A stretch of 20,352 bases of DNA from a virus. Positions 142 to 16,194 of the stretch are shown here, in pieces. Under the pieces are notes generated by a model. It did no database searches. It saw nothing but the letters and a program-made list of their open reading frames with translations, and was not told where the DNA came from. The translations under genes were made by a program, and so were the position numbers. The stretch spans positions 1-20,352 of IMG/VR virus record IMGVR_UViG_3300022938_000001. One strand, given 5' to 3'. Positions within the stretch are counted from its first letter, which is position 1. Every line of letters begins with the position of its first letter.

Positions 142-853
142 AGTGGTTCCTCCTGATTTCAAAAATTATATGGTTTATATCGTCAAGGTGAGGGATAAGC
201 CTCCACCCTACTTTTTTATGATCTGCCCATCTTAAATATCCAGCATTGGGACCAACATTGGCAATATCAGCTTTGTCTCCCTTTGGAGTCGTTAAAATCC
301 AGGGATCTTTCCCACACATTAGAGAAAGAATTGTTAATGAAGTAATGAGCCCCACTCTTATCGGGCTGTTTTTTATAGCATATACAGTCGATTCTAAATA
401 ATTATCATAATCCCAGGCACTCGCACATTTAAAATGATAACTATAATCCGGATGGCCGGCTGCAAAGAGCCTTACCCCTCTGCTTTGAAGTTGATAAACA
501 AACTTATCCCACTTATCCCAATTCATTTGAGCATTATTGGCCTTTTTTCTCGGGAAAAAAACAACATCTGCTTCAAAGCCGAATTTTTTGACCTCCGGAA
601 TAAACGGTTTTGCTTTTTGACAGTGACCACCAGCATGGACAAATTTATAATCTTTTCCAAATTTATTTCTTATATCATCGTCCGACATATTCTTCTCAAC
701 GTAAAATCTTTCATCCGCACTTGGATAAAGGCACTCTTTACCCTTTTCGTGGCAAACAATCTTATATTTGTCTATGCCGTTAACATGATAAACATTTTTA
801 AGAAGCTCCCCTCCGAATTCATAGGTAATTGGTAAACAAACAATTTTATCCAT
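122..853 (-). CDS. Possible GT-B glycosyltransferase (divergent GT9-like)
   Basis: The 243-residue product is soluble with no signal peptide or membrane span. The C-terminal segment around residues 163-190 (SPIRVGLITSLTILSLMCGK) looks like the acceptor-side helix of GT9 heptosyltransferases, where a G-x-x-T/S-x-x-x-x-L-A/S-x-x-x-G-K pattern contacts the nucleotide sugar. The N-terminus has EFGGELLKN in place of the usual GDxxxxxP loop, so a catalytic Asp is not obvious. Its ATG overlaps the stop of the sulfotransferase gene by eight bases (ATGGATAA), and GGGAG lies just upstream. It is probably part of the same sugar-modification operon. The family call is a weak structural guess; it could be an inactive or different GT-B protein. 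Confidence 0.5.
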   Translation of the reverse strand: MDKIVCLPITYEFGGELLKNVYHVNGIDKYKIVCHEKGKECLYPSADERFYVEKNMSDDDIRNKFGKDYKFVHAGGHCQKAKPFIPEVKKFGFEADVVFFPRKKANNAQMNWDKWDKFVYQLQSRGVRLFAAGHPDYSYHFKCASAWDYDNYLESTVYAIKNSPIRVGLITSLTILSLMCGKDPWILTTPKGDKADIANVGPNAGYLRWADHKKVGWRLIPHLDDINHIIFEIRRNHYESFQS

Positions 854-1481
854 AAATTTCTCCCTCTATCCATGGCGGAATACATGCCTTGCGTATATTT
901 TCACCAATTTGATCACACTCATTGCAAATATCGGCGCTCAGATAAATTATATCTTTCCCCTTCGACCTATTTATAGGAACATGCCTATGTTGTTCTACAA
1001 GTTTCATATTTTGATCGTTTACAAGAAGATCAAACAGATCGAGCATTATTTGATTATAATACCCATCGAAATAATCTTTTGACCATATAAACCACGGCTT
1101 TGGATTAATATCAGGAAGTTGCTCATAAATGCTTTCATAGGTACGCTTCCAGTATTTATCAACAAGTTGCTCCGGAGTAAGATCTTTGTCGGGACTTCCC
1201 TTTCCCAAATAATAATTGTGTAAAGAGGCACAACTCTCTAAAACCCTGCGATATAAGATAATAAATCGTGCATAAGGATAATCTTTTGCTATTTTTCCAA
1301 TTTTTGGGCTTTTGCTCCAATCGCAATCGATAAAATTCACATCAGGAGATATGAGGCCAAACCCTTTTTGATGTTGGGCAATTCCATTAATGCCGTTTGC
1401 CTCAAATAGCTTTCTGTATAATGTAGCGATATGCAACGTTCCGCTTTTCGCCATACCTAAAACTATAATTTGACGAGCCAA
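846..1481 (-). CDS. P-loop sulfotransferase-like protein
   Basis: The 211-residue protein has the two hallmarks of PAPS-dependent sulfotransferases. An N-terminal beta strand leads into a phosphosulfate-binding loop (IIVLGMAKSGT, residues 5-15). A second segment, ARFIILYRRVLESCASLHN (about 71-89), resembles the 3'-phosphate-binding strand and helix with its Arg and Ser. By family knowledge it would move sulfate from PAPS to a hydroxyl on a sugar or other acceptor. The start is TTG at 1479-1481. The next ATG, at codon 10, would cut off the strand before the P-loop, so TTG is preferred; AAGGAAG lies upstream. It overlaps the GT9 gene behind it by 19 bases. An unrelated P-loop kinase is possible but less likely. 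Confidence 0.72.
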   Translation of the reverse strand: MARQIIVLGMAKSGTLHIATLYRKLFEANGINGIAQHQKGFGLISPDVNFIDCDWSKSPKIGKIAKDYPYARFIILYRRVLESCASLHNYYLGKGSPDKDLTPEQLVDKYWKRTYESIYEQLPDINPKPWFIWSKDYFDGYYNQIMLDLFDLLVNDQNMKLVEQHRHVPINRSKGKDIIYLSADICNECDQIGENIRKACIPPWIEGEIYG

Positions 1482-2263
1482 TTTTTTACGCTTCCTTTCT
1501 CGTAATCGTTAATATCAACCGACGCAACGTTCTGTTTAGTATAACAATCAATGCAATACGTTTTCTGTAAATAAAGCGTTTTTTCAGGCATAACCGCTAA
1601 ACTGACCGGCAAATTACCAGAAGCGACACAAATTGAAGCCGCACAATGCTGATAAAGTCCAATTAATGTTTTTACAGAAGGCTTTGCGCCTCTTGTCGTA
1701 CAGTCAATGAAACCGAACTTTTTATTTACCGGATTATAATATTTATGTTGAAAAAACGCCTCGATAGGAATAAAACCGGATTCGATAATCTCATTCCATA
1801 TCTCTTCTGCCGTTTCTTTTGTGGGGTTGATAGGATCAGGCAGGGCAGTTGCCTGAAAATGACAGGCTACTAGCTTACTTTCATGTTTGGGGAGTGTGGG
1901 GTAATCATCAACAGGATCTATTCCCAATTCTTGAACACAACACCAGCCTTGTTTCGTGTAAGCCCCGTTAAGGTGCTCACACATTGGGAAGTGGATCTGA
2001 AAGGTGTATTCATATCCATCGATCGCTTCGTTGGGTGAAGTTATCAGGAGCCCACCTTCAAATAGGACTTCCTGGCCAACTCCATCTTGTAGCGCAATAT
2101 CTATTTTTGTATCAGGAAATAACGCCCTCAATTCAGCCAGTGGACGTAAAAACATGATCACATCACCAAGGCCATGCCAAAAAATGAGACATACCTTTCT
2201 TGGTTTTTCCAAAATAAGATAATCAGCTACCTTTTTACTGGCATAGCTCGTGATAAGTTCCAT
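1463..2263 (-). CDS. GT9-family (heptosyltransferase-like) glycosyltransferase
   Basis: The 266-residue protein has a typical GT9 N-terminus: HGLGDVIMFLRPLAELRALF (residues 30-49), matching the GDxxxxxPxLxxLRxxFP motif of ADP-heptose:LPS transferases, with Asp34 in the catalytic-base position. The C-terminal segment TLIGLYQHCAASICVASGN fits the second Rossmann domain. It is shorter than bacterial WaaC and WaaF, which are about 320-350 residues. The start is ATG at 2261-2263 with AAGGAT upstream, directly against the stop of the gene before it. It would transfer a sugar from a nucleotide donor; donor and acceptor are not predictable. The frame is intact. Confidence 0.78.
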   Translation of the reverse strand: MELITSYASKKVADYLILEKPRKVCLIFWHGLGDVIMFLRPLAELRALFPDTKIDIALQDGVGQEVLFEGGLLITSPNEAIDGYEYTFQIHFPMCEHLNGAYTKQGWCCVQELGIDPVDDYPTLPKHESKLVACHFQATALPDPINPTKETAEEIWNEIIESGFIPIEAFFQHKYYNPVNKKFGFIDCTTRGAKPSVKTLIGLYQHCAASICVASGNLPVSLAVMPEKTLYLQKTYCIDCYTKQNVASVDINDYEKGSVKNWLVKL

Positions 2264-2569
2264 TTAATCCTTGGGTGGGCCAAACCTCCGGACGTTCCCT
2301 GTCTCTTTCTGAGTATTCGGCACTTTTTGAAGGTGCTTTCTCAGGCTATGGGGAATATCCTCCTGCGGAAATCTTATTGTTCCCTGCCAGTGGAAAAGTT
2401 TTTCGCCCTCTTTACGAGAGATTGCTATCATAAAACTACCGGATTTTTCTGCAAGTTCAATCTGCTCGTTCATTTCGGCATAGATCTTTTTTTCTGCCGT
2501 TTGAGTTTTAACAACCATTCCTAATTTCTTACCAACTTCCTTGTTTTCAGCCTCTTTTTTCCCTTCCAT
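2264..2569 (-). CDS. Small unknown protein behind the duplicated leader
   Basis: I choose the ATG at 2567-2569 (101 residues) because AAAGGAG sits just before it. An in-frame ATG twelve codons upstream has no ribosome site and falls inside the leader hairpin. The first 45 residues are highly charged and lysine/glutamate rich. The rest has a compact-looking segment with GEKLFHWQGTIRFPQEDIP near residues 58-76. I recognise no domain. The gene ends directly against the GT9 gene, so the two are probably co-translated. It is the only cassette gene with the same 5' leader as the scaffold gene, so it may be made in large amounts or under the same control. Confidence 0.72.
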   Translation of the reverse strand: MEGKKEAENKEVGKKLGMVVKTQTAEKKIYAEMNEQIELAEKSGSFMIAISRKEGEKLFHWQGTIRFPQEDIPHSLRKHLQKVPNTQKETGNVRRFGPPKD

Positions 2570-2573
2570 TTTG

Positions 2574-2626
2574 ATTCTCCTTTCGTTGTGTAAAATAGTT
2601 GCCATGCAAATATGTTACACAACTTT
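2574..2626 (-). promoter_or_regulatory. Leader hairpin, copy 1 of a two-copy element
   Basis: On the minus strand a 9-base arm GTTGTGTAA (2615-2623) and its exact complement TTACACAAC (2585-2593) flank a 21-base loop. The element ends four bases before the Shine-Dalgarno of the 101-codon gene. The 5' arm contains the last codons and stop of the preceding gene. The same arrangement, with the same loop length and same distance to the start codon, occurs before the scaffold gene at 13025-13063. It could be an RNA hairpin governing translation or mRNA processing, or a DNA operator. Confidence 0.6.
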
Positions 2627-3262
2627 TGCAAAATATTCTTTGTGTGTCATTTTAAAATATTTACCAAATATAGCCACCCTTGTCCTAGGTCTATACATTT
2701 CTTTAAAGTCTACAACATCTGCTTTAAAATTTTTCGGTTTAGATAACGCTATGGCTTTTATAAAGATTTCTGGATGCATTACAGCCGAACCCATATTAAC
2801 AAAATGGAAATTGTCTTGTATAAACCTTATTCTTAATGTGTTAAAACATGATTGAGAAACATCTCCAAGTTGATTCCATTCGGCAATATCAAAATGATGC
2901 CAAAAATCAGCACCAGGCATTGTAAAAAGAAGAATAGGGATATCCATATCTTCACATAATCTTGTTACTGAGCCCTGTGGCGCAAAAGATGATAGCATAT
3001 CCATTTGAATCGGATCTTTTTTGCTTGCTAACCATTTCCAAACCAATTCAGATGTTGGTCTATTACATTCAAATGATTCCAATAGTTTGTCAATCGGATA
3101 AGAGTGTGTTTTTAAATCTTTATCAATCACCCTTTGGAAGTCATGGAATATTGAACCGCCATTATGGATTAACATTTCAATTTTGTCATCCTTTACGGCT
3201 GCAAGTAATTCTTCTTTAGCGGTTTTTATGACAGCTCCACCTATGGCTAAAATTTTCTTAAT
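2615..3262 (-). CDS. Rossmann-like unknown protein with apparent ATT (AUU) start
   Basis: The first ATG in this frame (3173-3175) has no ribosome site. Upstream, the frame stays open with protein-like sequence KKILAIGGAVIKTAKEELL, which looks like the first strand and glycine turn of a nucleotide-binding fold. No ATG, GTG or TTG lies between the in-frame stop (3266-3268) and that ATG. A GGAGG at 3271-3275 lies 8 bases before an ATT at 3260-3262, so AUU is the best start, giving 215 residues. Later motifs are IHNGGSIFHDFQ, GADFWHH and VNMGSAVMHPEIFIKAIAL. The glycine pattern is faintly like the deoxyhypusine synthase fold, but I cannot assign a function. It begins 20 bases after the GT9 gene and ends inside the leader hairpin. 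Confidence 0.68.
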   Translation of the reverse strand: MKKILAIGGAVIKTAKEELLAAVKDDKIEMLIHNGGSIFHDFQRVIDKDLKTHSYPIDKLLESFECNRPTSELVWKWLASKKDPIQMDMLSSFAPQGSVTRLCEDMDIPILLFTMPGADFWHHFDIAEWNQLGDVSQSCFNTLRIRFIQDNFHFVNMGSAVMHPEIFIKAIALSKPKNFKADVVDFKEMYRPRTRVAIFGKYFKMTHKEYFAKVV

Positions 3263-3275
3263 ATTTCAAACCTCC
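3260..3275 (-). promoter_or_regulatory. Ribosome binding site fixing an AUU start
   Basis: GGAGG (3271-3275 on the minus strand) stands 8 bases before ATT at 3260-3262, inside the 20-base gap that follows the upstream stop codon. No standard start codon lies at the right distance. The placement matches other ribosome sites in this window. Confidence 0.6.
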
Positions 3276-3282
3276 ACCGTTC

Positions 3283-4152
3283 TTAATACGATAAAATCCC
3301 ACCATCGTAGTATAAAAGAACATTTCGCGCGACTTCTTTGGGACTAATCATGGCGTAACATCTTGGAACGCCGCCAACTCTTGACTTGCAATCCTCGAAT
3401 TTCGCCGTCCAACACCCATTTTCAGGCGCACACTTTAGACAGCCACAAACACTTAGGTATCTGTGACAATTATACATTTGCCACCGTGGGGGCTCTTTTC
3501 CTCCGGCAACAATGACAGACGGCTTATTAAAGGCCGTTGCCAGGATAAATTGACAGGATAACGGTCCAATGGTTCCATCGGATCGGTAAATAATGGTTAT
3601 CAGATCTCTCAGGCTCGTTTCTCCAATAAGGCTGAACACTCCAGTTAATTCCGGATGAGCATCGTTATTCGTCCCTACCTGAACGATCTGAACCTTATTT
3701 TTGAGCTCTTCAACAACCTCTTGCCAAAATGGATAATATTTTAATATTGCATCGGCTTTATATCCTGCGTTTAAAACCCAATATTTACCTGAATAACTTG
3801 TTTTTTCCTGAACCACATTACGCTGTTTTTCTTTATTGGTTATATGCAGATCAATATTCATTGATGTATGAGGAATATCAATTCCTAACTGATCAGCTAA
3901 ATCCAGTCTGAAACCGTCTGAAAACGACATAGAACCTGAATTCTGTATCAATGGATACCCAATATCAAGCGTTTTGCCCTCACCGTCATTAATCGGTGTA
4001 ATATATGGGTTATTTTTCCATAAATCCGGCCACCTTGTTCTAACGTCTGTTTCATATTTACCCGGGTGAGCCAGGTGTAAATCTCTGATTGCGATTGTCA
4101 TCATGGCCGTATCTCCAACATCAAGACCATGCTTTATTATTAATTTTTCCAA
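3283..4152 (-). CDS. GT9-family glycosyltransferase with cysteine-rich C-terminus
   Basis: This 289-residue protein is the most complete GT9-like enzyme here. The N-terminal loop is HGLDVGDTAMMTIAIRDL (residues 8-25), with Asp14 in the catalytic position. A central QVGTNNDAHPELTG and SLIGETSLRDLITIIYRSD match the core of the second domain. Then TIGPLSCQFILATAFNKPSV is the G-P-x-(x)n-A nucleotide-sugar loop. The C-terminus carries six cysteines within about 40 residues, as many GT9 proteins do. The start is TTG at 4150-4152, touching the stop of the methyltransferase gene; AAGGA lies upstream. The donor may be ADP-heptose or another nucleotide sugar. Confidence 0.82.
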   Translation of the reverse strand: MEKLIIKHGLDVGDTAMMTIAIRDLHLAHPGKYETDVRTRWPDLWKNNPYITPINDGEGKTLDIGYPLIQNSGSMSFSDGFRLDLADQLGIDIPHTSMNIDLHITNKEKQRNVVQEKTSYSGKYWVLNAGYKADAILKYYPFWQEVVEELKNKVQIVQVGTNNDAHPELTGVFSLIGETSLRDLITIIYRSDGTIGPLSCQFILATAFNKPSVIVAGGKEPPRWQMYNCHRYLSVCGCLKCAPENGCWTAKFEDCKSRVGGVPRCYAMISPKEVARNVLLYYDGGILSY

Positions 4153-4665
4153 TTATTTCCTTCCAAATAGATAAGATCCAATATCGGACCGGATTTCACA
4201 TTCTGGATGCCCCTTTATGCCAAGTTCAAAACCTCGTTTATCAAAAAATTCAATAATGCTGTGATCTGTAAACGTACAGATATGCTCCCCTGGTTTATAA
4301 TGTTTCCATTCGTGCAAAAGAATTCCTGGCGGAAGAATCGGAACCGTCACTGCTACCCACTTTGAGCAGCTTATCATGGCATTTGCCAGGGTTAAATCTT
4401 CCAGATGTTCAAGAACGTCCCAAAACGTAATAAGATCATATCTTTCTCTTGTTATCCCAGTTTGCGGAGCCACCCCAATATCATAAGTATCAACCTCAAC
4501 TCCTGCAGGACGAAACACCCTGAACCATGGAATTCCTGCGCCAAAATCAAGAACATGCTTTGCATCACATAAATTTACAAAATTCCATCTTATAGCAGAT
4601 ATTTTTTCAGCCGTCGAACTGTTAAGCCTTAAAGTTCTTTCAAAATAATCAATATCATACTTCAT
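4153..4665 (-). CDS. Class I SAM-dependent methyltransferase
   Basis: The 170-residue protein has SAM-binding motif I (VLDFGAGIPW, residues 38-47), an acidic end of the second strand (VDTYDIG, about 58-64), and a DLITFWDVLEHLED segment at 77-90 typical of the Methyltransf_23 type. These enzymes often methylate sugars, quinones or small molecules. Being first in a glycosyltransferase and sulfotransferase cassette, a glycan methyltransferase is the most likely role; that is inference. It is shorter than usual (200-250 residues) but the core fold is present. Its ribosome site is weak (AGGC), and the gene begins eight bases after the stop of the beta-rich gene, so coupling is likely. Confidence 0.82.
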   Translation of the reverse strand: MKYDIDYFERTLRLNSSTAEKISAIRWNFVNLCDAKHVLDFGAGIPWFRVFRPAGVEVDTYDIGVAPQTGITRERYDLITFWDVLEHLEDLTLANAMISCSKWVAVTVPILPPGILLHEWKHYKPGEHICTFTDHSIIEFFDKRGFELGIKGHPECEIRSDIGSYLFGRK

Positions 4666-5130: not shown

Positions 5131-7610
5131 GCCTCGCTCCAAACATTTGTTTTCATGCCAACTTCAATGAGCTCCATTTCGGTATTGAACTCACCAGCAC
5201 TTATTTTAACTGAAATGTTTTGATCGGTTATATTGGTATTAAATCGTGCTCTTGATACGATCTGCCCAGGCTTTTCCGGAAGCATCGAAATGACCTTATT
5301 CGACTCAGACAGATTATTTTTTAAAAATTCAATAATAACTTCGCCATATTCCTGTGCTGCGAATCTTATCAGGAATTCCTCAATATTGATTAATTCACCA
5401 TTAAAATTAAGTTCCATCTTGGAATAAGAGTCAACCGCTTCATTGACATCGTTAAGACCGTAATTTGACTGGTAAATAGTTCCATCACTCTGACCACCAC
5501 CAAGTTGAAGGGCTGGAACGTTGCCGGATCCGGCTTCACATTCAGCCAAGCAAGAAAATTTCTGCCCCAAATCGTCGAATGACCACGTTTTATCTTTTAG
5601 ATCATATACCGGAAATACATTTGCTTTTGTGGCCAAGGATCCAGAAACAAGACCAAGCCTGAGAACGCCATAGGCTGAATCGTATTTCAACCACATTTTA
5701 TGCTCATATCCTCGCCTAATACTTTCTGGCTTTGTGGGATCAAAATAGTTTTGAATATCATCAGAAATAATAGAAATAGTGTAACCGTTTGAAACACATA
5801 CGCCTTTGATGGATAAAAAGAATACCAAAGTGGCAATTTTATCTTCAAGGGAAGTGGCTTTATCGGCTGTCGCTGTTTCGACACCCTCAACGATTTCAAC
5901 CGTTTTGGCATTCATTGTGCCAATTCTTGACGAAAGAACGGTTCTCGTCATAGTTACCGGAGTGGTCCCTGAAAATAACGTTACGCAACCACCTTCAACG
6001 CCCTCTTCTGCTTGCCACACCATCAAAGTATCTTTATAACTCTTCATGTTTACGATTTTATTACTTCGCCCATCACCAGCTCTTAATATTCCGTAATCAG
6101 ATCCATTTAAAACTAACGGCGCACCCCTTTTAGAAAGATAAAGATAATTTCCATATTGATCAAAACTATATACCGTCCGGTCCTTCCATGTTGTATTACA
6201 CTGGCTTATTCCAAGATCGGCTATATCAAAATATGGCATAACATCTATCGCAATGACAACATCTGCATCTATTGAGGTGTTGAAAATTAGTTTATACCAG
6301 TAAGCATAGTTGCGGTTTTGCTGAAACTGTGATGCTTGTGCCGGTTTTCTCGCAAAGGTTATCCAGCCACTTTGCTGAAGGCCGTTTGTGCCGTCACTCA
6401 CTGCACCTTCTCCACCTTCTCCGACATCAAGGGCATATATATAATCAAATCCATCTCCATCCCAAAAGTCAATCTCTCTAATTGCCTTTGAATCGTCACA
6501 CGGTGTATTTCCAAGGTCTATATATATCCCCTCTATCGGATCGTTTGTTCCTATGATTATTTCGCTTTGCGCTGTCAAACTTCCAATATCTACCGCCCCG
6601 CTTCCATAGGTTCTATATACGTCCGGCGTTTGAGACTCTATATAATCTCCAACCAAAACTTCTACGGCTGGCGGAATAACCCCATCCCACACATTGATAA
6701 TGTTTTGAAAGTCTGACTGAAATGTTACTGTTTTTATTTGAATATTGTTAGATGTCCAGTTGCTAAAAACAATTCGATACCAAAAACCGCTTTTCCCAAA
6801 CTGATACCGTGGAATGAGTCCTTCCGTCGAGTCTGTTTCTTTAACGGAAGGCGCGGTAAACGTCATATCGCCGTCTTGTGCTAAAGCTATCCCTCCAGAG
6901 GCAGTTCCATCACTAAAATTAGATACGGCGGTCCATCCTGTAGATGAATTATAATATTGAATTGCCGCTGTTAAAGTAGCGGTATTGGGAGTGGTTACCA
7001 CAAACCCAAAGGCTTTTGCCGGAACAGGCACACAAATATAAAGAGCATGAGCTGTTGACATACTGGAAAACGTTGCATAAACAGCCCTGTTATTTCTTAC
7101 CTCCGTGGAATAGTCAACACCACCACCAGGAATATCCGGAATTGGAGTAGGCGCTTTATAAACTATGAACTTTTCAACAAAACTTTCAACCCCACAATAT
7201 ATCTGATGCTGATCGACACCATTTGACATAATCAACTTGTCACCCTGAACACTCCAAGCTGCAGGAATCTGATTAATTCCTCCGTCAAAAACCTCGCTTC
7301 CAAAAACTCCAGTAGTCACTGTTGGGGGCTCGTTTGCTGCTGCAAGAATGTCACCGTCCGACATTTGAGCAAATATATAATTCTCATCAACTTGTGATTT
7401 TTTGAACTGATGAATGGAAAGAACTTCGTTTGATCCGTCCGCGGTCGTGTGAAGTTTTATTTGCCCAGGCCGTTTAATGAAATTGGGGTGTTTTCCCCTG
7501 ATATTCTGGACCATGGAATAAGAACCAAAAGGAAGCTGTGCTGCATTTCTCACCGTGACAGCTCCGCCCTGGACCGGATTAGCCTTAATCGGAGTCAATG
7601 GTTTAAGCAT
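5127..7610 (-). CDS. Putative tail nozzle/stabilisation protein (P22 gp10 or T7 gp12-like)
   Basis: This is an 827-residue beta-rich protein. Residues 36-50 (NIRGKHPNFIKRPGQ) match the 'rkG-x-l-x-kRPG' opening of podovirus tail hub and nozzle proteins, followed by strands and DGDIL/DGTIY turns suggesting a beta-propeller. The last 90 residues (EEFLIRF, EYGEVIIEFLK, SVKISAG) resemble the terminal domain of this class. Two similar segments, about 215-300 and 380-460, each carry SDGT, an FWYRI/YWYKL strand and an xFN turn, so a beta-sandwich domain seems duplicated and inserted. Its position after the connector-like gene fits. The start has AGAGGT upstream. It could instead be another large tail protein. 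Confidence 0.6.
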   Translation of the reverse strand: MLKPLTPIKANPVQGGAVTVRNAAQLPFGSYSMVQNIRGKHPNFIKRPGQIKLHTTADGSNEVLSIHQFKKSQVDENYIFAQMSDGDILAAANEPPTVTTGVFGSEVFDGGINQIPAAWSVQGDKLIMSNGVDQHQIYCGVESFVEKFIVYKAPTPIPDIPGGGVDYSTEVRNNRAVYATFSSMSTAHALYICVPVPAKAFGFVVTTPNTATLTAAIQYYNSSTGWTAVSNFSDGTASGGIALAQDGDMTFTAPSVKETDSTEGLIPRYQFGKSGFWYRIVFSNWTSNNIQIKTVTFQSDFQNIINVWDGVIPPAVEVLVGDYIESQTPDVYRTYGSGAVDIGSLTAQSEIIIGTNDPIEGIYIDLGNTPCDDSKAIREIDFWDGDGFDYIYALDVGEGGEGAVSDGTNGLQQSGWITFARKPAQASQFQQNRNYAYWYKLIFNTSIDADVVIAIDVMPYFDIADLGISQCNTTWKDRTVYSFDQYGNYLYLSKRGAPLVLNGSDYGILRAGDGRSNKIVNMKSYKDTLMVWQAEEGVEGGCVTLFSGTTPVTMTRTVLSSRIGTMNAKTVEIVEGVETATADKATSLEDKIATLVFFLSIKGVCVSNGYTISIISDDIQNYFDPTKPESIRRGYEHKMWLKYDSAYGVLRLGLVSGSLATKANVFPVYDLKDKTWSFDDLGQKFSCLAECEAGSGNVPALQLGGGQSDGTIYQSNYGLNDVNEAVDSYSKMELNFNGELINIEEFLIRFAAQEYGEVIIEFLKNNLSESNKVISMLPEKPGQIVSRARFNTNITDQNISVKISAGEFNTEMELIEVGMKTNVWSEA

Positions 7611-8486: not shown

Positions 8487-9212
8487 TTATTCCGGCTTAG
8501 ACTCTGGAAAAGGCTCTTTGAACAATTTTTCGTGTTTCTCTCTTATTTCTTCCTGAATCTCAACCGGATATGTTGGTATTTCTTCCCAGTTTTTCTTCAT
8601 CCATGCCGTGAACTGTGCTTTATTAAGTCGTCGAAATTTAACCGCTTCTTCAACTTCGGTTTTCTCGGGATTCGGATCCTCAGTTTCACTTACCTTTGTA
8701 AGTCCTTTGACCAGCATCATAAGCTCGCCTATTTGACCGGACATTTCTTTTATTTGACCGGCCTGTTCTTCGAGCTGAACGTTTTTATCATCAACTTCCT
8801 TCTTTAGTTTGCTGATCTTACTCTTTTCAATATCAGGAAGCTCATAAGGCGCAATAAGTTTGATTCCCAACTCGTCTGAATAGCTTTTGAGTTGTTTTGT
8901 CGGAGGAAGGTACGGAAGTTTTCGGCTTTCATTGGCCTGGTTCAACTGATTAAAGTCAACAACTTGTTTCAGTTTGAATTCCTTGTTCCGTTTTTTGCCC
9001 TCTTCTGCTTTTACTTTCTTAGCTTCTCCTTCATCTCCGAAATCAAGAGTTGTCAAACCCCTTGGGGCAAGAATGTTTAAAAGATGTCGAGCTTTGGCAT
9101 CATCCACCTTGACCATGTGTCCTTTTTCCGGATATTTATTGATCGTGGTGGTTATTCCAATGTGCTGTGCTGAAAGTACCTCGTTTGTTGGGTTAAATAG
9201 TGTTGTGGCCAT
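8487..9212 (-). CDS. Unknown coiled-coil protein of the head gene cluster
   Basis: The 241-residue protein starts with a beta-like segment (residues 1-60, including QHIGITTTINKYPEKG). It continues with a lysine-rich linker (about 61-80) and a predicted coiled coil near 125-165 (ISKLKKEVDDKNVQLEEQAG). It ends in a charged helical tail containing FTAWMKKNWEEIPTYP. No domain is recognised. It is expressed from a strong AAAGGAG site preceded by a 145-base gap with a 21-bp dyad, so it may begin its own regulated unit. Its place between the capsid and connector genes suggests a head-completion or virion role. Confidence 0.7.
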   Translation of the reverse strand: MATTLFNPTNEVLSAQHIGITTTINKYPEKGHMVKVDDAKARHLLNILAPRGLTTLDFGDEGEAKKVKAEEGKKRNKEFKLKQVVDFNQLNQANESRKLPYLPPTKQLKSYSDELGIKLIAPYELPDIEKSKISKLKKEVDDKNVQLEEQAGQIKEMSGQIGELMMLVKGLTKVSETEDPNPEKTEVEEAVKFRRLNKAQFTAWMKKNWEEIPTYPVEIQEEIREKHEKLFKEPFPESKPE

Positions 9213-9234
9213 AGTTTTTCTCCTTTCCCTTAAA

Positions 9235-9255
9235 TAATGACTGTATCAGACATTA
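9235..9255. promoter_or_regulatory. 21-bp dyad before the 241-residue gene
   Basis: Arms TAATGACTG and CAGACATTA (plus strand) flank a central TAT, with eight of nine base pairs matching. It ends about 10 bases before the AAAGGAG of the downstream gene. It could be a repressor operator or an RNA stem with one mismatch. No second copy was seen in the window. Confidence 0.5.
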
Positions 9256-9278
9256 ATAAAGGTATGAATGAGTTATAT

Positions 9279-9323
9279 TGGTCGAGTGAACAGGTGGCAT
9301 CACGCTCCTTATCCACCCGACCA
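9279..9323 (-). other. Nested stem in the intergenic leader
   Basis: TGGTCG (9318-9323, minus strand) pairs with CGACCA (9279-9284), and next to it GGTGG (9313-9317) pairs with CCACC (9293-9297). This gives an 11-bp interrupted stem with an 8-base bulge and a 15-base loop. The loop carries AAGGAG followed by ATG at 9298-9300, which opens a 15-codon frame ending at the dyad. A leader RNA is possible; function is not shown. Confidence 0.4.
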
Positions 9324-9357
9324 GCCTAAAAGGAGGCAAATGCCCCACGTGAGGCCA

Positions 9358-10859: not shown

Positions 10860-12182
10860 TTAGGTATAAAGAGCTGGTTCGACAAGATCTTTCAGAAGAG
10901 TCAATGAAGCTCTCTTCTCGGTTCCTACATTAGTGTAGATCCTGAGAAATCTGTCGTACTCGTCAAATCCTGCTCTCTGATGCATACCAGGATCAATGTT
11001 ACCCCAACCCAGTGGAGTCATTTCAAACTTCTCAATAACGCCATTAGGCTCAAAGAACATTTTATTCGGTGGAAGTGCCGGATCTATAATCATTTTCACG
11101 GATCCATCACCACCGGAGAAGGTCAGTCTTTCATAACCGCCCTCAAGGGTTCCTGGTGTAAAGCGAATATCAGGAATGAGCAAGTTCGCATATTTTCTAC
11201 GCTGGCCCAAGCCCATTCGGATACACTGGACATTATCGCCGCCTCTTGTTCTCGAAAGATCAAGAGCTTGAAGCATTAAGTCCAGGGAAAGTTCACGGTT
11301 TACGCTCGAATTTCCAAGGACGCTTGCTTTCCACTCGGGATAAGTGGCAACGGTAATATTCTCAAAGGTTGCAAGCAATGTGCCGTCGTCATAAATACCT
11401 TCAAGTCCCATCATTTCGGTAGATACGTCGGTTGTGGCATGTGCCGCTTCCCTCGCGCCGATTCTGACCATTTCGGCTGCATCGGCAACTGCATCAGTGG
11501 CAACGGTATAGCTCTGAGCTGCTACGATTGGATGGTTTGCCAAGTAGGTGCTATCATTGAATTCCATCTCAAGGGTTTTGCCTGAAGGATGAACTTCTGC
11601 GATACGGCTTGCAGCAGCAGATTGATCGATGGTTGTACCACCGGTGTAAAAGTCAACAATCATGCCAGGAATACATCTTGATACTCCAAGATCATTATCC
11701 ATGGTGACTGTCCAGGTTGTCGCTGATGTGGTAAGCGCATCTGAGGCTTCTGACAATGTTCCCAGTAAACCAAAACTGTCACCACAAGACATCCTGTTAA
11801 GATCGACAACGATACTCTTATAAATATCATCAATCGAATCAGAAAGTGCATCAACGAATGCCGCAACATCTCCCTTTGCCGCTTCGATCGAAGGTCCGGT
11901 AAGTCGGATTGAACCATAAACGTACTTTGGTAAAATCTTCCCTTTATCCGGTTTGATGGCCAACGGATCAGGCAGATTAGCGGATTCTCGCCTTGCGCCA
12001 ACACCCTGCGCTCTGGCGTAACGAATTCCGAATTCATAACCAAGCCCTTTTGGGGACCGGCCAGTTTTCGGAAACAAATTGTAAGTTGTTTTCTCATCAG
12101 CGAACTGATTGGTCAACCCTTCACCATAAACAAGTTTAAGGGTATCCTCAATCGCTGTAAGAGTTGTGTAGTCTACTCCCAT
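10860..12182 (-). CDS. Major capsid protein (HK97-fold)
   Basis: The 440-residue protein has the size and gene position of a podovirus capsid protein, directly after the scaffold gene. The N-terminus (YTTLTAIEDTLKLVYGEGL) is helical. A basic extended region follows (GIRYARAQGVGARRESANL). A middle domain has ALDLSRTRGGDNVQCIRMG near residues 308-326. The end has MTPLGWGNIDPGM and LRIYTNVGTEKRASLTLLKDL, the strand and helix pattern of the HK97 A-domain and C-terminus. The start is ATG with AAGGAGG, the strongest site in the area, as expected for the most abundant virion protein. A strong terminator follows. Confidence 0.85.
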   Translation of the reverse strand: MGVDYTTLTAIEDTLKLVYGEGLTNQFADEKTTYNLFPKTGRSPKGLGYEFGIRYARAQGVGARRESANLPDPLAIKPDKGKILPKYVYGSIRLTGPSIEAAKGDVAAFVDALSDSIDDIYKSIVVDLNRMSCGDSFGLLGTLSEASDALTTSATTWTVTMDNDLGVSRCIPGMIVDFYTGGTTIDQSAAASRIAEVHPSGKTLEMEFNDSTYLANHPIVAAQSYTVATDAVADAAEMVRIGAREAAHATTDVSTEMMGLEGIYDDGTLLATFENITVATYPEWKASVLGNSSVNRELSLDLMLQALDLSRTRGGDNVQCIRMGLGQRRKYANLLIPDIRFTPGTLEGGYERLTFSGGDGSVKMIIDPALPPNKMFFEPNGVIEKFEMTPLGWGNIDPGMHQRAGFDEYDRFLRIYTNVGTEKRASLTLLKDLVEPALYT

Positions 12183-12208: not shown

Positions 12209-13009
12209 CTATTTAAAGATTTTATCAAGCCTTGACTTTAAAATGCCCCTGGCCTCTTTAAGGGTTTTTACCTTTTTAGTTTCAGGAGGGGTTGAGTCAG
12301 AAGAAGTGGTCATTTTCACAACTTTGGCCTTACCTTTGATATAACGTTTGATAACGTCCTGCTCGAAAGCCATGATCTTTTTAGCTGCAGACTTTGTAAT
12401 GCGCTTGATTGCAGTTTTATCTTCAAGATCGATTTCATGGATTTCGTTCTCAATACCAAGGAATTCAGTCAAATGGTTGTGATATGCTGCCGGAAGATCC
12501 TCTTGCGCCTTAATGGTTGATTTGACCGTATTAGTAAAGAAGGTAAGAGCCCTTTTATTTTCCTGAAATTTTTCTTGTTCAGCTTCTTGCTCCTTGAACT
12601 TTCTGCGCTCTTCCAGTTTTTCCTTTTTTAATCGGGCAATCGTTTCCTCTGGCGTTTCGTTATCTTCCCTTTCCTTCTCCTTATCCTCCGCCCATACCTT
12701 TTGATACCTTTTTAGAAGGGCTGAATGTTCTTTGAGCTCTTCAAGATTGGCATCGCCAACATCATCCTTGAGGGTTGCCAGTTTCGCAACAAACGTTTTA
12801 AGTTCTTCCGGTGAACTAATCTCATATTCATCAAGAAGACCTTTGATTGTTTTGATTCCTGCCTTATCATCATCTGATAGTGCGCCAGCTTTTTCTTTTC
12901 CGGCTTTGTCAATATCAGTGGTGTCCTCAACGATCTTTTCCGTTAAATCCTCGACACCAGCTTTAGTGCCGTCCTCTAATGCTGTTGTTTCTGTTCCTTC
13001 TTCTCCCAT
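12209..13009 (-). CDS. Capsid scaffolding protein
   Basis: I use the ATG at 13007-13009 because GGGAGG precedes it; upstream in-frame ATGs have no ribosome site and fall in the leader element. The 266-residue product is very charged and mostly helical. It has an acidic N-terminal third (residues 1-110), a long central coiled coil (about 125-175, rich in Lys/Glu/Arg), and a basic C-terminal helix (TLKEARGILKSRLDKIFK). This is the usual plan of phage scaffolds, whose basic end binds capsid protein. It lies immediately before the capsid gene, 26 bases apart. No protease domain is visible. Confidence 0.82.
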   Translation of the reverse strand: MGEEGTETTALEDGTKAGVEDLTEKIVEDTTDIDKAGKEKAGALSDDDKAGIKTIKGLLDEYEISSPEELKTFVAKLATLKDDVGDANLEELKEHSALLKRYQKVWAEDKEKEREDNETPEETIARLKKEKLEERRKFKEQEAEQEKFQENKRALTFFTNTVKSTIKAQEDLPAAYHNHLTEFLGIENEIHEIDLEDKTAIKRITKSAAKKIMAFEQDVIKRYIKGKAKVVKMTTSSDSTPPETKKVKTLKEARGILKSRLDKIFK

Positions 13010-13013
13010 GATG

Positions 13014-13066
13014 TTCCTCCCTTCGTCGTGCAAAATAGTCATAATATGAATATGTTGCATAACTGT
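13014..13066 (-). promoter_or_regulatory. Leader hairpin, copy 2 of the two-copy element
   Basis: Minus-strand arms GTTATGCAA (13055-13063) and TTGCACGAC (13025-13033) flank a 21-base loop. Compared with the copy at 2585-2623, one T-A pair has become C-G, one pair is now a wobble and one is a mismatch. Loop ends CATATT and ACTATT are shared, and in both copies 15 bases separate the element from ATG. Confidence 0.6.
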
Positions 13067-13080
13067 TGTTATTAATAAAA

Positions 13081-13114
13081 AAGGCCACGCTGGGTTTTAT
13101 CCCTGCATGGCCTT
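13081..13114 (-). terminator. Rho-independent terminator between Com-like gene and scaffold
   Basis: On the minus strand AAGGCCATGC pairs with GCGTGGCCTT (ten pairs, one G-T), with an inner GGG/CCC stem and AT-rich loop, followed by a T-rich run. It lies just after the Com-like gene, so the scaffold and capsid genes likely need their own promoter or read-through. Confidence 0.85.
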
Positions 13115-13142
13115 CTTGAAGCTCTGTGGAATTGTTATGTCT

Positions 13143-13307
13143 TTATTTTACTACGGCTATTTTCTTGCCGTAAATCAACGTAAACGGAACTATTCGCTCT
13201 TTAAACTTGTTGAATTGTTTACACTTTCGACACTTTATTTCAATGTCTATCTCCCCTGCCGCTTTTAAAAGAAATGTACCACATTTTTTACATTTGATTT
13301 TAGTCAT
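13143..13307 (-). CDS. Com-like zinc-ribbon protein, 54 residues
   Basis: The frame from ATG 13305-13307 to TAA 13143-13145 encodes 54 residues with two CxxC pairs, Cys6/Cys9 and Cys26/Cys29, in the setting IKCKKCGTFLLKA and IEIKCRKCKQFNKF. This matches the small zinc-binding Com family, whose phage Mu member binds mRNA and activates mom translation; here no mom-like gene is visible. The lysine-rich tail could bind nucleic acid. No clear ribosome site precedes it; GTTGACAAC, a small palindrome, lies about 13-21 bases upstream. It starts 29 bases after the portal stop and is closed by a strong terminator. It may regulate neighbouring mRNAs. Confidence 0.72.
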   Translation of the reverse strand: MTKIKCKKCGTFLLKAAGEIDIEIKCRKCKQFNKFKERIVPFTLIYGKKIAVVK

Positions 13308-13336
13308 ATATTTATAGGGTTGTCAACTGTTTTTGA

Positions 13337-15424
13337 TTATTTCGCTGGTTTCTGGCCTCCTGCTGCCTCCTGCATAGCGATTTGTTGCTGCATGGCCTCT
13401 TCGATCTGCGCTTTCATGCCAAATTTATGAAGGTCCGTATGACCTATCAAGGTTTGCTTTGCATCCGGCGACAGCTCTCTGAATTCAGCACCGATGATAA
13501 AGTCTCGGTGAATATTGAAATGAATCACATGGTTATCATACTTGAATTTAGGATCATCAGACAAAGTAATGGTTTCAAGTGGCTCTTCTTCTGTTCCCCT
13601 GGGATCGTTCATGCTCAAATATATTCCAGGAATAATCGAAACTATGAGTTTTTTACCTCCACCAGCATCCACTTCAACATCAACAAAACGGTCCTCTTCG
13701 TTTGCGTCTGCGATCTGTGAGTTTTCGTGCTGTGCTCGTTGTACGTCTGCATTGGTCTTATCGGCAAAACCTGAAAGCCCCATTCTTCTCATAAGCTCGT
13801 CCCTGAATTCAGGCTCTAATTCAGACTGTGCGGAAAAGAATCCTGCCTCGATCAATTTAAGGAACATTTGAACTTGACCGGTCTTTGTAGATGAAATGCC
13901 GGAGCTCAATTCAAGTCGAACATCAGTATTATCTCTTAGATCTGAACCCTTGAATTTGCGTATTTCGATCTTTTTACCTTTGCCTGACACCTTAAGCATA
14001 CGCTCTTCGCTGTATAAATGTTTGGCCAGGATGAGACTTTTCCGTTTTGTTCTCTTGATTCCACGATAAAACCTCATAACATCAGGAGTATGGCCTTGCT
14101 CGGCTGCTTCCCTGAGAGTGTCAACCATCACACCGGACGCTTGAGCACTTGGAGCCTGACCTCGCATAACGTTCTTTGGATCTCCTGCGGCTTCCTGAGC
14201 TACCTGTCTATGAGCCTGTCTTTCATCAAGAATCTGTGCCGGTAATGGTATCCCCTGTCTAAATTCCGGTTTTTGGCCACCAGATGTCATAGCATCAAAT
14301 TTAAGAAGGAGTAAATGCTCACCGTAATCAGATATTTTCTTTATTTCAATATCTGAGGTCATAGTAACCATGCTGCGCCCCAGTGACTTCCGGTTGACTT
14401 CAAGAGCCTGATCTATTTGATTAATGGTATTTTGTGGGCTTATCAGGTCATTTACACCAGCGTCAGACCAGAAGCGACCAGGGACATAGTAATAATGAAA
14501 ATCGGTACAGGTGTATTCCCATTTTCCGTTTTCATCAATCGGGATAGGCATTTTATCGTGGGCAAACATCTTTTGACCGCAACAAGTGGCAACATATCGG
14601 CCGTTCGGATATCTCATATCGGGCTTATACTCAATTTCCTTGAAAATAACCATATCATCATCCTCAACATCAGATAATGTTTCTAAGCCGGATCCCTTCC
14701 AAGGAGAAACGCTTGCCACCATTTTCATGAGTTTCTTTTGATAGTTTGTGGCCTTTTCCGCCTCGTCAGTGGTTAAATTTATTTTAAAAGTATCTTCAAC
14801 CCATTCTCTCGGCTTAACAGATTGAACACCCACCGCACGCTTTTTATTCAGGGTTTCGCCCATTACATCAACGAAAACATTAAATAATGAAACATTCTCG
14901 GATACAACTTCACCCGTTTTCATCATATCGCCATTGTCGTCAAGATACCATTGCCCTCGATCCAGCTCCGGAAAAGTACGAAAAAACGTCGTGCCGGCCA
15001 ATACAACCCACATGGCCACCTTTTCTTTTTCGTCTAAGAATTCTTCATCGTTGGCCGCTTCCATATCTTTCAGGACCAGCTCACCTAATTTTGCGGCTTG
15101 AGCATCCTCAACATCATCGCTGTTTGGCCATACTGAAACGGAAAAGTCTTTATTGAGGATAAGCGCTTTCATGGATCGAACATAATCTCGAATGATATTT
15201 GATACGGGGGTGGGGAGTGAGTTTTTCTTTATAATACGCCTGAACATTTGTTCTTTCTTTGCCCAGTTCATCCATTGCTCACCCATGTAATAAAGGATAT
15301 TGCGAAAGGTGATTCGGTGGAGCATTTGAATATAAAGATCCTGATCGAAATTAAAGAACTCTTCGACGGTCCTGATCACATACGCTTCGTCTAACTTGTC
15401 TACCGGAGCTGTTTTCGAATTCAT
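13337..15424 (-). CDS. Portal protein (P22-like)
   Basis: The 695-residue protein is the usual size for P22-type portals. The N-terminus has a helical front (FNFDQDLYIQML, FRNILYYMGEQWMNW near residues 40-55). Then PTPVSNIIRDYVRSMKALIL (about 71-90) is a hallmark of this family: N-x-I-x-x-x-V followed by a strand on membrane-free wing domains. Later YYVPGRFWSDAGVNDLISPQ and QTNTINQIDQ-like helices and the GQAPSAQASGVMVDTLREAA segment fit the clip and crown. The end is Gln/Ala/Met rich. It forms the dodecameric DNA channel. It starts with AGAGGT, thirteen bases after the cysteine-rich gene. Confidence 0.85.
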   Translation of the reverse strand: MNSKTAPVDKLDEAYVIRTVEEFFNFDQDLYIQMLHRITFRNILYYMGEQWMNWAKKEQMFRRIIKKNSLPTPVSNIIRDYVRSMKALILNKDFSVSVWPNSDDVEDAQAAKLGELVLKDMEAANDEEFLDEKEKVAMWVVLAGTTFFRTFPELDRGQWYLDDNGDMMKTGEVVSENVSLFNVFVDVMGETLNKKRAVGVQSVKPREWVEDTFKINLTTDEAEKATNYQKKLMKMVASVSPWKGSGLETLSDVEDDDMVIFKEIEYKPDMRYPNGRYVATCCGQKMFAHDKMPIPIDENGKWEYTCTDFHYYYVPGRFWSDAGVNDLISPQNTINQIDQALEVNRKSLGRSMVTMTSDIEIKKISDYGEHLLLLKFDAMTSGGQKPEFRQGIPLPAQILDERQAHRQVAQEAAGDPKNVMRGQAPSAQASGVMVDTLREAAEQGHTPDVMRFYRGIKRTKRKSLILAKHLYSEERMLKVSGKGKKIEIRKFKGSDLRDNTDVRLELSSGISSTKTGQVQMFLKLIEAGFFSAQSELEPEFRDELMRRMGLSGFADKTNADVQRAQHENSQIADANEEDRFVDVEVDAGGGKKLIVSIIPGIYLSMNDPRGTEEEPLETITLSDDPKFKYDNHVIHFNIHRDFIIGAEFRELSPDAKQTLIGHTDLHKFGMKAQIEEAMQQQIAMQEAAGGQKPAK

Positions 15425-15436
15425 AGCTTACCTCTT

Positions 15437-15676
15437 TTATAGTGCGTTTTCGTTGAGCTTATGATCTCCGCACCAATCATCGGAATAAACAACTGGATAG
15501 CCGTTCATTGAAGGGGCATGTCGTCTGCACCGACCGATCTCCATAATCACTTCACCGGTTTCTGTTTCCTTGGCCATTTTCTTGACATACCACATGCAGG
15601 TTCCACAACGCATCCCTTCGGATCTATACGCCCACGGATCATCTACAATCACTTGTTTTTTCTTTTCCTTTGCCAT
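15437..15676 (-). CDS. Small cysteine-rich metal-binding protein
   Basis: The 79-residue product has Cys24, Cys27, Cys50 and Cys69, in GMRCGTCMWYV, IGRCRRHAPSM and DDWCGDHK. Such 'CxxC...GxCrrhaP...WCG' proteins are recurrent in phages near portal genes and are expected to bind zinc or an iron-sulfur cluster. Function is unknown. The N-terminus is lysine rich. A perfect AAGGAGG lies upstream, and it ends just before the portal. No signal peptide or membrane span. Confidence 0.7.
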   Translation of the reverse strand: MAKEKKKQVIVDDPWAYRSEGMRCGTCMWYVKKMAKETETGEVIMEIGRCRRHAPSMNGYPVVYSDDWCGDHKLNENAL

Positions 15677-15703: not shown

Positions 15704-15991
15704 TTAATGTTTTTCTTGCTCAGAATAATATCTTTTGCCCTTCTTGAATACTCGGTATCCTGCTTTTTTCTCGCCCTTCTCAAGTTTATCCCACGTTTTA
15801 TGCTTGCGCCCTTTTAGTAATTTGCCGGTCTTTGGGTCACGGCTCCCCATGTGTCCACGTTTATCACGTTTCATTCCGGATTTCTTGGCTGTCTCATAAT
15901 CGTAACCGGATCCCTCTGGATTAAAAGAAGAAGATATGTCTGCTTTCGGTTTTAGAGTATCGTGGACGGATCTAAGTGTTTTCTTTGGCAT
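15704..15991 (-). CDS. Small basic phage protein (GYDY / KGRKHKTW type)
   Basis: I choose ATG 15989-15991, with GGTGA seven bases upstream, over the ATG ten codons earlier. The 95-residue product reads SGYDYETAKKSGMKRDKRGH near residue 40, then MGSRDPKTGKLLKGRKHKTW. This is a recognisable pattern in small phage proteins of unknown function that lie near terminase and portal genes. It is strongly basic, and may bind DNA or RNA. Its start overlaps the zinc-ribbon frame upstream by 40 bases, in a different frame. Confidence 0.65.
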   Translation of the reverse strand: MPKKTLRSVHDTLKPKADISSSFNPEGSGYDYETAKKSGMKRDKRGHMGSRDPKTGKLLKGRKHKTWDKLEKGEKKAGYRVFKKGKRYYSEQEKH

Positions 15992-16194
15992 ATTTTCACC
16001 ATCTTTCTGCATCTTGAGCATCTATAACGTTTTCTTAATTTCACCACGGAAAATGAGGCAAAGCAATAAGGGCAATCCCGTCTTCCCCATTTCAGGTTAT
16101 CAGGACCAGCCGGCTTAAAATACCACGGAAAAATCTTATCAACATAAAGAGGATCATCCCTTGACAATACAAATCGGTCCAATACGTCTCGCAT
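15952..16194 (-). CDS. Small zinc-ribbon protein
   Basis: The 80-residue frame carries CPYCFASF (Cys41, Cys44) and RCSRCRKM (Cys59, Cys62), a standard four-cysteine zinc ribbon with a fifth Cys at 69. The start at 16192-16194 overlaps the stop of the upstream gene (TAATG) and has AAGGAT nearby. The two CxxC pairs, one in each half, would be unlikely by chance. Its last 40 bases overlap the next gene. Nucleic-acid binding is likely; partner unknown. Confidence 0.62.
   Translation of the reverse strand: MRDVLDRFVLSRDDPLYVDKIFPWYFKPAGPDNLKWGRRDCPYCFASFSVVKLRKRYRCSRCRKMVKICQRKHLDPSTIL

Follow-up and report, generated by a model that had tools for sequence, protein, structure and literature searches.

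Downstream of a group of Com-like zinc-ribbon genes in phages, a small RNA hairpin overlaps an intrinsic terminator, the 3' arm of the hairpin being at the same time the start of the terminator's 5' arm. The hairpin covaries, is present or absent together with Com, and in one record is found a second time at a distance from it. That these proteins represent a phage subfamily paired with an attenuator instead of mom, and antiterminate transcription into head and tail genes, is a reading for and against which we consider the case about evenly balanced. Com is known mainly as the mom regulator in Mu-like phages. The window (W) is the whole stretch of 20,352 nt of viral DNA that was analyzed; L-numbers label the loci and records compared with it.

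The Com-like gene of the window

The Com-like gene is located on the minus strand at 13143..13307 (ATG at 13307, stop codon 13145-13143) and encodes 54 amino acids. The plus-strand frame over the same bases is interrupted by a stop. A preliminary description of this DNA had pointed out a 54-residue frame with two CxxC pairs in the Com arrangement; its coordinates hold, and its strand is minus. The protein (MTKIKCKKCG...IEIKCRKCK...) has its cysteines at C6-x2-C9 and C26-x2-C29, which is the N-terminal C-x2-C ... C-x2-C ribbon sought in proteins of about 60 aa. All four are invariant across 31 aligned Com-like sequences and likewise in an alignment with 21 other Com-like proteins, Mu Com included, to which the window protein is 41% identical over the aligned part.

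The profile searches agree with the Com-like assignment made earlier. In the PHROG scan, gpCom is matched over residues 1-32 (5.1e-6), followed by 'translational regulator' (1.7e-5). PF10122 (Zn_ribbon_Com) is the best Pfam match (8.4e-4), although its 19.2 bits stay below the curated cut-off of 22.9 bits; the same model is matched above the cut-off in 11 of 17 records with related loci. An unrelated ribosomal-type ribbon had been named as the outcome that would speak against Com, and in Pfam both the S27e ribosomal and the RNA polymerase ribbons score below PF10122. The NCBIfam scan gave no match over the cut-off. The AlphaFold2 prediction, made with 23 sequences, is an all-beta ribbon with a mean pLDDT of 81.8, in which the C-terminal 14 residues are less certain. 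No significant match to this predicted fold was found with Foldseek (best E 0.53 for ZitP, then RPB9/LysW-type ribbons), and sequence searches of solved structures returned, with no E below 0.04, only the ribbons of S27e, Pf0610, acetyl-CoA carboxylase and TRM112. Judged by its sequence, the product is a C4 zinc ribbon of the Com-like type. Purifying selection acts on the gene: the comparison with the L007 com gives dS 1.32 and dN 0.34, and other pairs agree (L149-L155, dS 0.37 and dN 0.08; L043-L045, 0.34 and 0.04), with synonymous sites saturated in some pairs.

On the minus strand, com is preceded by the portal protein gene (13337..15424; phrog_156, 6.7e-14) and followed by a terminator, a presumed scaffold gene (12209..13009) and the major head protein gene (10860..12182; phrog_14242, 7.7e-31). 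The scaffold gene is named by its position and has no profile match; its ATG at 13009 lies inside an ORF spanning 13060-12209. The earlier placement of com between portal and terminator is thus borne out, the portal being found at 15424-13337 and the terminator at 13114-13077. A TTGACA element upstream of com (13321..13326, minus strand), a putative promoter, is conserved in the relatives L004, L007, L011 and L018 and also in L003 and L005, which are devoid of Com. The gene is without a clear Shine-Dalgarno sequence. Further upstream, beyond the portal gene, two small cysteine-rich proteins with weak or no profile matches are encoded on the minus strand (15437-15676 and 15952-16194).

As stated before, no mom gene is in view: neither mom nor DNA-methylase models are matched among the 18 proteins of the 20,352-base record scanned with Pfam. 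The sole methyltransferase among them matches Methyltransf_23, which is not a DNA-methylase model. Accordingly, com neither overlaps nor precedes a DNA-modification gene in the window, where the next gene, past the terminator, is the presumed scaffold. A cluster of sulfotransferase-like, glycosyltransferase-9 and Methyltransf_23 genes (846-4665, minus strand) is located at the tail end of the phage fragment.

Com loci with and without a modification gene

Relatives were found by their portal and major head proteins. In L004, L007, L011/L012 and L018, com occupies the same gap between portal and scaffold; it is missing in L003, L005, L006, L008, L009 and L010, and no PF10122 match was found in the whole L003 record. 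At the com position, L003 has a different 32-codon frame behind the same TTGACA element (8831-9200) and L005 a shorter frame behind TTGACA (6850-7080), as if small genes swap there. In a different phage, L001, a 68%-identical Com is encoded ahead of the portal, which here is a frame reading rather than a profile match.

Two kinds of com loci can be told apart. In the first, com adjoins a DNA-modification gene. Among 23 downstream genes from Pseudomonadota genomes and named phages (19 of the 29 Com loci plus L023, L025, L050 and L103), Pfam counts 16 MethyltransfD12, 2 N6_N4_Mtase and 2 C-5 DNA_methylase; the result is pooled and does not distinguish which gene matches which model. An annotated DNA methyltransferase adjoins com in Smp131, AP3, KS5, Chuche and TJ1 and overlaps it in the first four. 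Similarly, a D12-type gene overlaps com in Mcat3, and a Mom-like gene is found beside it in JD024. In AC844P1, Com precedes a very long unnamed gene and no methyltransferase adjoins it. In the Pseudomonas phage Komp_PAO1_1 (L024, 5298-6425), the gene after com encodes a protein matching ABC/AAA and acetyltransferase models and is followed by a formyltransferase gene, possibly another DNA-modification pathway. Not every Com acts on its neighbor: a com stop mutation in Pseudomonas syringae was without effect on the levansucrase gene behind it, as given in the available part of PMC3899960.

In the second kind, to which the window belongs, orphan Coms of viral contigs are encoded before a head protease (L032 group, L046, L102), before a scaffold-like gene and major head protein (L040, L041, L042, L044, L089), before the major head protein (L038), the portal (L001, L029), an endolysin (L095, L096, L099, L101, L104) or the tape measure (L031, L106). 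An int-alpA RNA (Rfam RF02996) is located at 11781-11845 of L029, a Com-bearing phage. Com-like C4 proteins are also encoded in Candidatus Saganbacteria contigs (L048, L051, L052), outside obvious phage genes.

The Com tree comprises 50 rows and 38 columns and has many open forks. On it, the Coms linked to the element described below require one label change, as opposed to a mean of 17.0 after shuffling (0 of 500 shuffles as low); the split that unites them in one clade is weakly supported (62/61). The window groups with L001, L004, L011 and L018 (95/85).

The hairpin-terminator element and its linkage to com

The element found 3' of orphan coms in many unrelated phages consists of one or two small hairpins of the form GA[4 bp, pentaloop, 4 bp]C and a subsequent intrinsic terminator. 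An example of hairpin 1 is GA[GCGG UUCGA CCGC]C, which is followed by a short A/U-rich linker; an example of hairpin 2 is GA[GCCU UACGA AGGC]C, the 3' arm of which starts the 5' arm of the terminator. The two structures are therefore mutually exclusive. The element measures about 45 nt plus the terminator. In the minimum-energy folds of 32 of 32 cases, the window included, the terminator takes up 4 or more of the 5 nt in the 3' arm of hairpin 2; forcing hairpin 2 to form costs 3.3-12.8 kcal/mol and releases bases beside the U-tract. The terminator thus wins by default in these folds, and a ligand of hairpin 2 would relieve termination.

In an alignment of 22 elements, all 176 cells of the 8 pairs are paired (100%). 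Both partners vary in 6 of the 8 pairs, giving 38 double-change cells compared to 10.3 after shuffling, and sliding the pair partners leaves 23-53% paired; 17 of the 22 elements satisfy a pattern that fixes many letters, so that only the free positions inform on covariation. Across 23 non-redundant cases found by way of the protein, GAG...CC and the final loop A are present in every one (loops UACGA 9, UUCAA 5, UUCGA 5, CAAGA 2, CCAGA 1, UCCGA 1). This bears on the view that com with a strong terminator is a moron or mobile cassette inserted among late genes, the hairpins marking its 3' boundary and the target of Com lying elsewhere, e.g. in a DNA-modification gene outside the window. Com and terminator do occur together in unrelated phages and at several positions, and Com adjoins modification genes in named phages. 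Loop and GA..C flanks are, however, conserved while the stems covary, and a D12 methyltransferase was found in 0 of 10 element-type or related records, as was Mom (0 of 10, in a search that had no positive control). We regard the cassette as unlikely.

The Rfam search gave no match in the window at the gathering score and none for the element in 9 loci; L040 1300-1480 returned only chance-level matches (E up to 5). No earlier description of a Com-linked hairpin-terminator element was found in the literature searched, mostly without full texts. The SELEX motif of Haemophilus sputorum Com, given in the available part of PMC6483171 as CC(N)2-3GAG in a loop, was considered as a target and set aside: it is not conserved in the element, and it occurs once beside the window hairpin and 15 times on that strand.

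The linkage to Com was examined from both sides. A pattern of the RNA alone, run on viral contigs, retrieved 23 stretches (8 contigs already known, a few near-identical), and a Com-like C4 frame lies upstream in all 23; these frames were recognized as Com by reading. The com stop codon is -1 to 18 nt before the motif in 22 of them and 254 nt in one. A pattern of hairpin 2 only, with pairing not imposed, yielded 21 matches. Com is encoded 24-43 nt upstream in 8 of the 10 that pair and directly upstream in 0 of the 11 that do not; in one of these 11, L169, a cysteine-rich but unrelated frame is found at a distance of 466 nt. Neither of the 2 paired matches without Com has an overlapping terminator.

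Starting from the protein, a hairpin-terminator was found within 600 nt 3' of com in 25 of 38 viral contigs and in 1 of 760 shuffled viral stretches. The window is positive. Window-like Coms served as the query for the viral set, which hence leans to the window's Com subfamily; one further viral locus and two genome loci, in which no Com frame was called, are left out. Three of the 13 viral loci in which the script finds no element (L037-39) have it by folding, including the overlap, and were missed by this and the loop-agnostic scan because of a G-U pair. For the coms that adjoin modification genes, no hairpin-terminator follows in the loci scanned (Smp131, Mcat3, Mu, Komp_PAO1_1, all but one of 27 Pseudomonadota loci). 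In the test starting from the protein, a single one of the 27 Pseudomonadota loci was positive, as were none of the 5 genome contigs and none of the 4 named phages. In 2.79 Mb of fetched sequence outside known Com tails, the loop-agnostic scan gave 12 matches, all in Com-bearing loci of the RNA-only pattern.

A model of the element (R2), run over 86 sources (725 kb), gave 28 matches at E up to 1, all but one (E 0.24) close 3' of com. On whole records, matches were obtained in 14 of 15 and 18 of 30; L007 and L102 came out empty because of their single off-consensus hairpin. With the same model, the element is absent from the whole records of the Com-less relatives L003, L005, L006, L008, L009 and L014, and there was no match in the records of the non-element Coms L030, L031, L043, L103 and L106. 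In 395 + 398 genomes, 2 marginal matches were obtained, both without Com or terminator and read as chance; this search is weak, since only 15-16 candidates per genome were scored.

The record of L046 (61 kb) holds one com and two full elements. The first follows com and precedes the protease and major head protein genes. The second is located 7.4 kb further on, between the tail-terminator and major tail protein genes, with no C4 frame in the preceding 1.2 kb; its hairpin 2 overlaps a terminator as well. Two weak R2 matches at 34.7-34.85 kb of this record are without a terminator and were not counted. The second element is the pattern expected of a trans-acting protein with two targets, in a single case. 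In 44 of 45 whole records the element is absent or found only beside Com, a distribution that hitch-hiking could also produce.

The spacing and the second copy are informative with regard to two further explanations. A Com-like protein that binds the hairpins could instead shut its own operon, protect or process the mRNA 3' end, or favor termination. The position of the element directly after the com stop codon in most cases is that of an autoregulatory site, and there is one terminator per com. In L004 and L032-type phages, however, com is separated from the element by small genes, the element remaining beside the head gene, and the L046 copy without com likewise argues against autoregulation. 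Moreover, hairpin 2 and terminator are exclusive in 32 of 32 folds, so that stabilizing hairpin 2 should lower termination. This explanation appears rather improbable to us. The close spacing would also suit ribosome-coupled attenuation, in which translation of com, with its stop abutting hairpin 1, picks the hairpin and the protein itself is dispensable; in 22 of 23 cases the distance from stop to motif is -1 to 18 nt. The longer distances in L011 (87 nt), L032 (222 nt), L150 (254 nt) and L004 (471 nt) speak against it, as does the L046 element without any com, and we think it very unlikely.

In the window, the structure that comes and goes together with Com is the hairpin that overlaps the terminator (13124-13077). 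The hairpin, a candidate antiterminator, reads GAGCTTCAAGAAGGCC (13109..13124, minus strand) and has the form GA[4 bp, loop CAAGA, 4 bp]C; the 5' arm of the terminator opens with the 3' arm of this hairpin (13114-13109). The terminator is strong and extends over 13077..13114 on the same strand, with 14-nt arms (AAGGCCATGCAGGG / CCCAGCGTGGCCTT) and a U-tract. It is likely that the window Com has its RNA target adjoining it. No other element examined is as poor as that of the window: hairpin 1 is missing, hairpin 2 has only -1.6 kcal/mol, forcing it costs 12.8 kcal/mol, the highest of the 32 folds, and R2 assigns 7.8 bits (E 0.59). The L007 element, with loop CCAGA, resembles it, and L018, whose portal is 79% identical, has both hairpins. 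Given the lost hairpin 1, the weak R2 score and the unclear Shine-Dalgarno sequence, the window is taken as a reduced member of the system, in which regulation may be weakened or lost on account of the single, weak stem. Pure decay of the window hairpin is too strong a description, as the unrelated L102 has the same CAAGA loop and an overlapping terminator.

The preliminary description had suggested another target, namely structured leaders including a duplicated one. The duplication is real. Copy 1, the leader of the scaffold gene (13008..13064), begins 79 nt 3' of com; copy 2 (2568..2624) precedes a gene of about 100 aa. Both are on the minus strand and sit just before the ribosome-binding sites of their genes. 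Their hairpin covaries (92.7% of cells are paired, and both partners have changed in 7 of 15 pairs) and has no Rfam match. According to its covariance model (R1), the leader occurs in 7 phages of the window's clade, at one of the two places or at both, and L003 and L011 have it at both (L114 in this search is a contig of L003); it is absent at E below 0.1 from the other phages searched, including other Com phages. The leader does not track Com, as it is found in L005 and, in two copies, in L003, both of which are devoid of Com, and neither copy in the window contains a Com-type hairpin. The intergenic leader at 9213-9357 (minus strand) has a very stable predicted fold (-51.3 kcal/mol); R2 yields there only a 3.7-bit match touching its edge. 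The duplicated leader was therefore rejected as the Com target, and its binding by the Com-like protein, real as the structure is, seems extremely unlikely.

Proposed mechanism and comparison with known systems

From the linkage alone we infer that the Com-like protein binds the candidate hairpins, and antitermination would be the consequence of this binding. By default, RNA past the com stop codon would fold as the terminator and transcription of the head genes would halt. Once accumulated, the Com-like protein would bind the GA-hairpins, i.e. hairpin 1 and the hairpin 2 that shares its arm with the terminator. Bound protein would hold hairpin 2 shut and thereby remove stem bases beside the U-tract, so that RNA polymerase could read into the scaffold and capsid genes, or elsewhere into protease, capsid, tail or endolysin genes. 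Tentatively, and with a little less than even confidence, this can be extended to a widespread late-gene switch, in which Com-like ribbons are sequence-specific antiterminators acting on tandem GA/UNCRA-loop hairpins which preclude formation of the intrinsic terminator ahead of capsid, tail or lysis genes, with further targets elsewhere in the same genome.

If orphan Coms are antiterminators, the Com family has a second mode of action and a second class of RNA targets, and Mu Com would represent a single branch of a larger family whose members relieve inhibition by RNA structures, be it of translation or of transcription. Many uncultured phages would then have a simple, testable switch that times their capsid expression, and an element of this small size can be tested directly in vitro.

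The methyltransferase-linked Coms of KS5, AP3, Chuche and Smp131 belong to the same protein family as the window Com. Their com overlaps the methyltransferase gene, whereas the element-type com does not. In the RAT antiterminators of LicT, SacY and BglG, the 3' side of a hairpin overlaps the 5' arm of a terminator, and the bound protein causes readthrough. The same sharing of a hairpin 3' arm and a terminator 5' arm is found here in 32 of 32 folds, including that of the window. The protein is, however, a zinc ribbon and not a CAT-domain protein (no Pfam match of the BglG/LicT CAT RNA-binding type was found for the linked gene), there is no sugar-PTS module, and the RNA has two UNCRA-type pentaloop hairpins. 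The put element of HK022 is likewise a phage RNA element that suppresses termination; in the available part of PMC9378689 it acts as RNA alone on RNA polymerase, whereas a linked protein gene and a terminator overlap are present here.

A parallel in protein terms is Com/mom of Mu, with a small N-terminal C4 zinc ribbon in both. As described in the accessible part of PMC6483171, the hairpin bound by Mu Com adjoins a structure that masks the mom start and is opened by Com, for which an accessible GA is needed; Mu Com thus acts on a hairpin adjoining or overlapping an inhibitory RNA structure, like the candidate described here. Differences are the lack of an overlapping modification gene, the different hairpin sequence, the separate tree branch and the nature of the inhibitory structure, which is a transcription terminator here and a structure over the start codon in Mu. 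The logic by which Mu Com opens an inhibitory structure, applied to a terminator, would result in antitermination.
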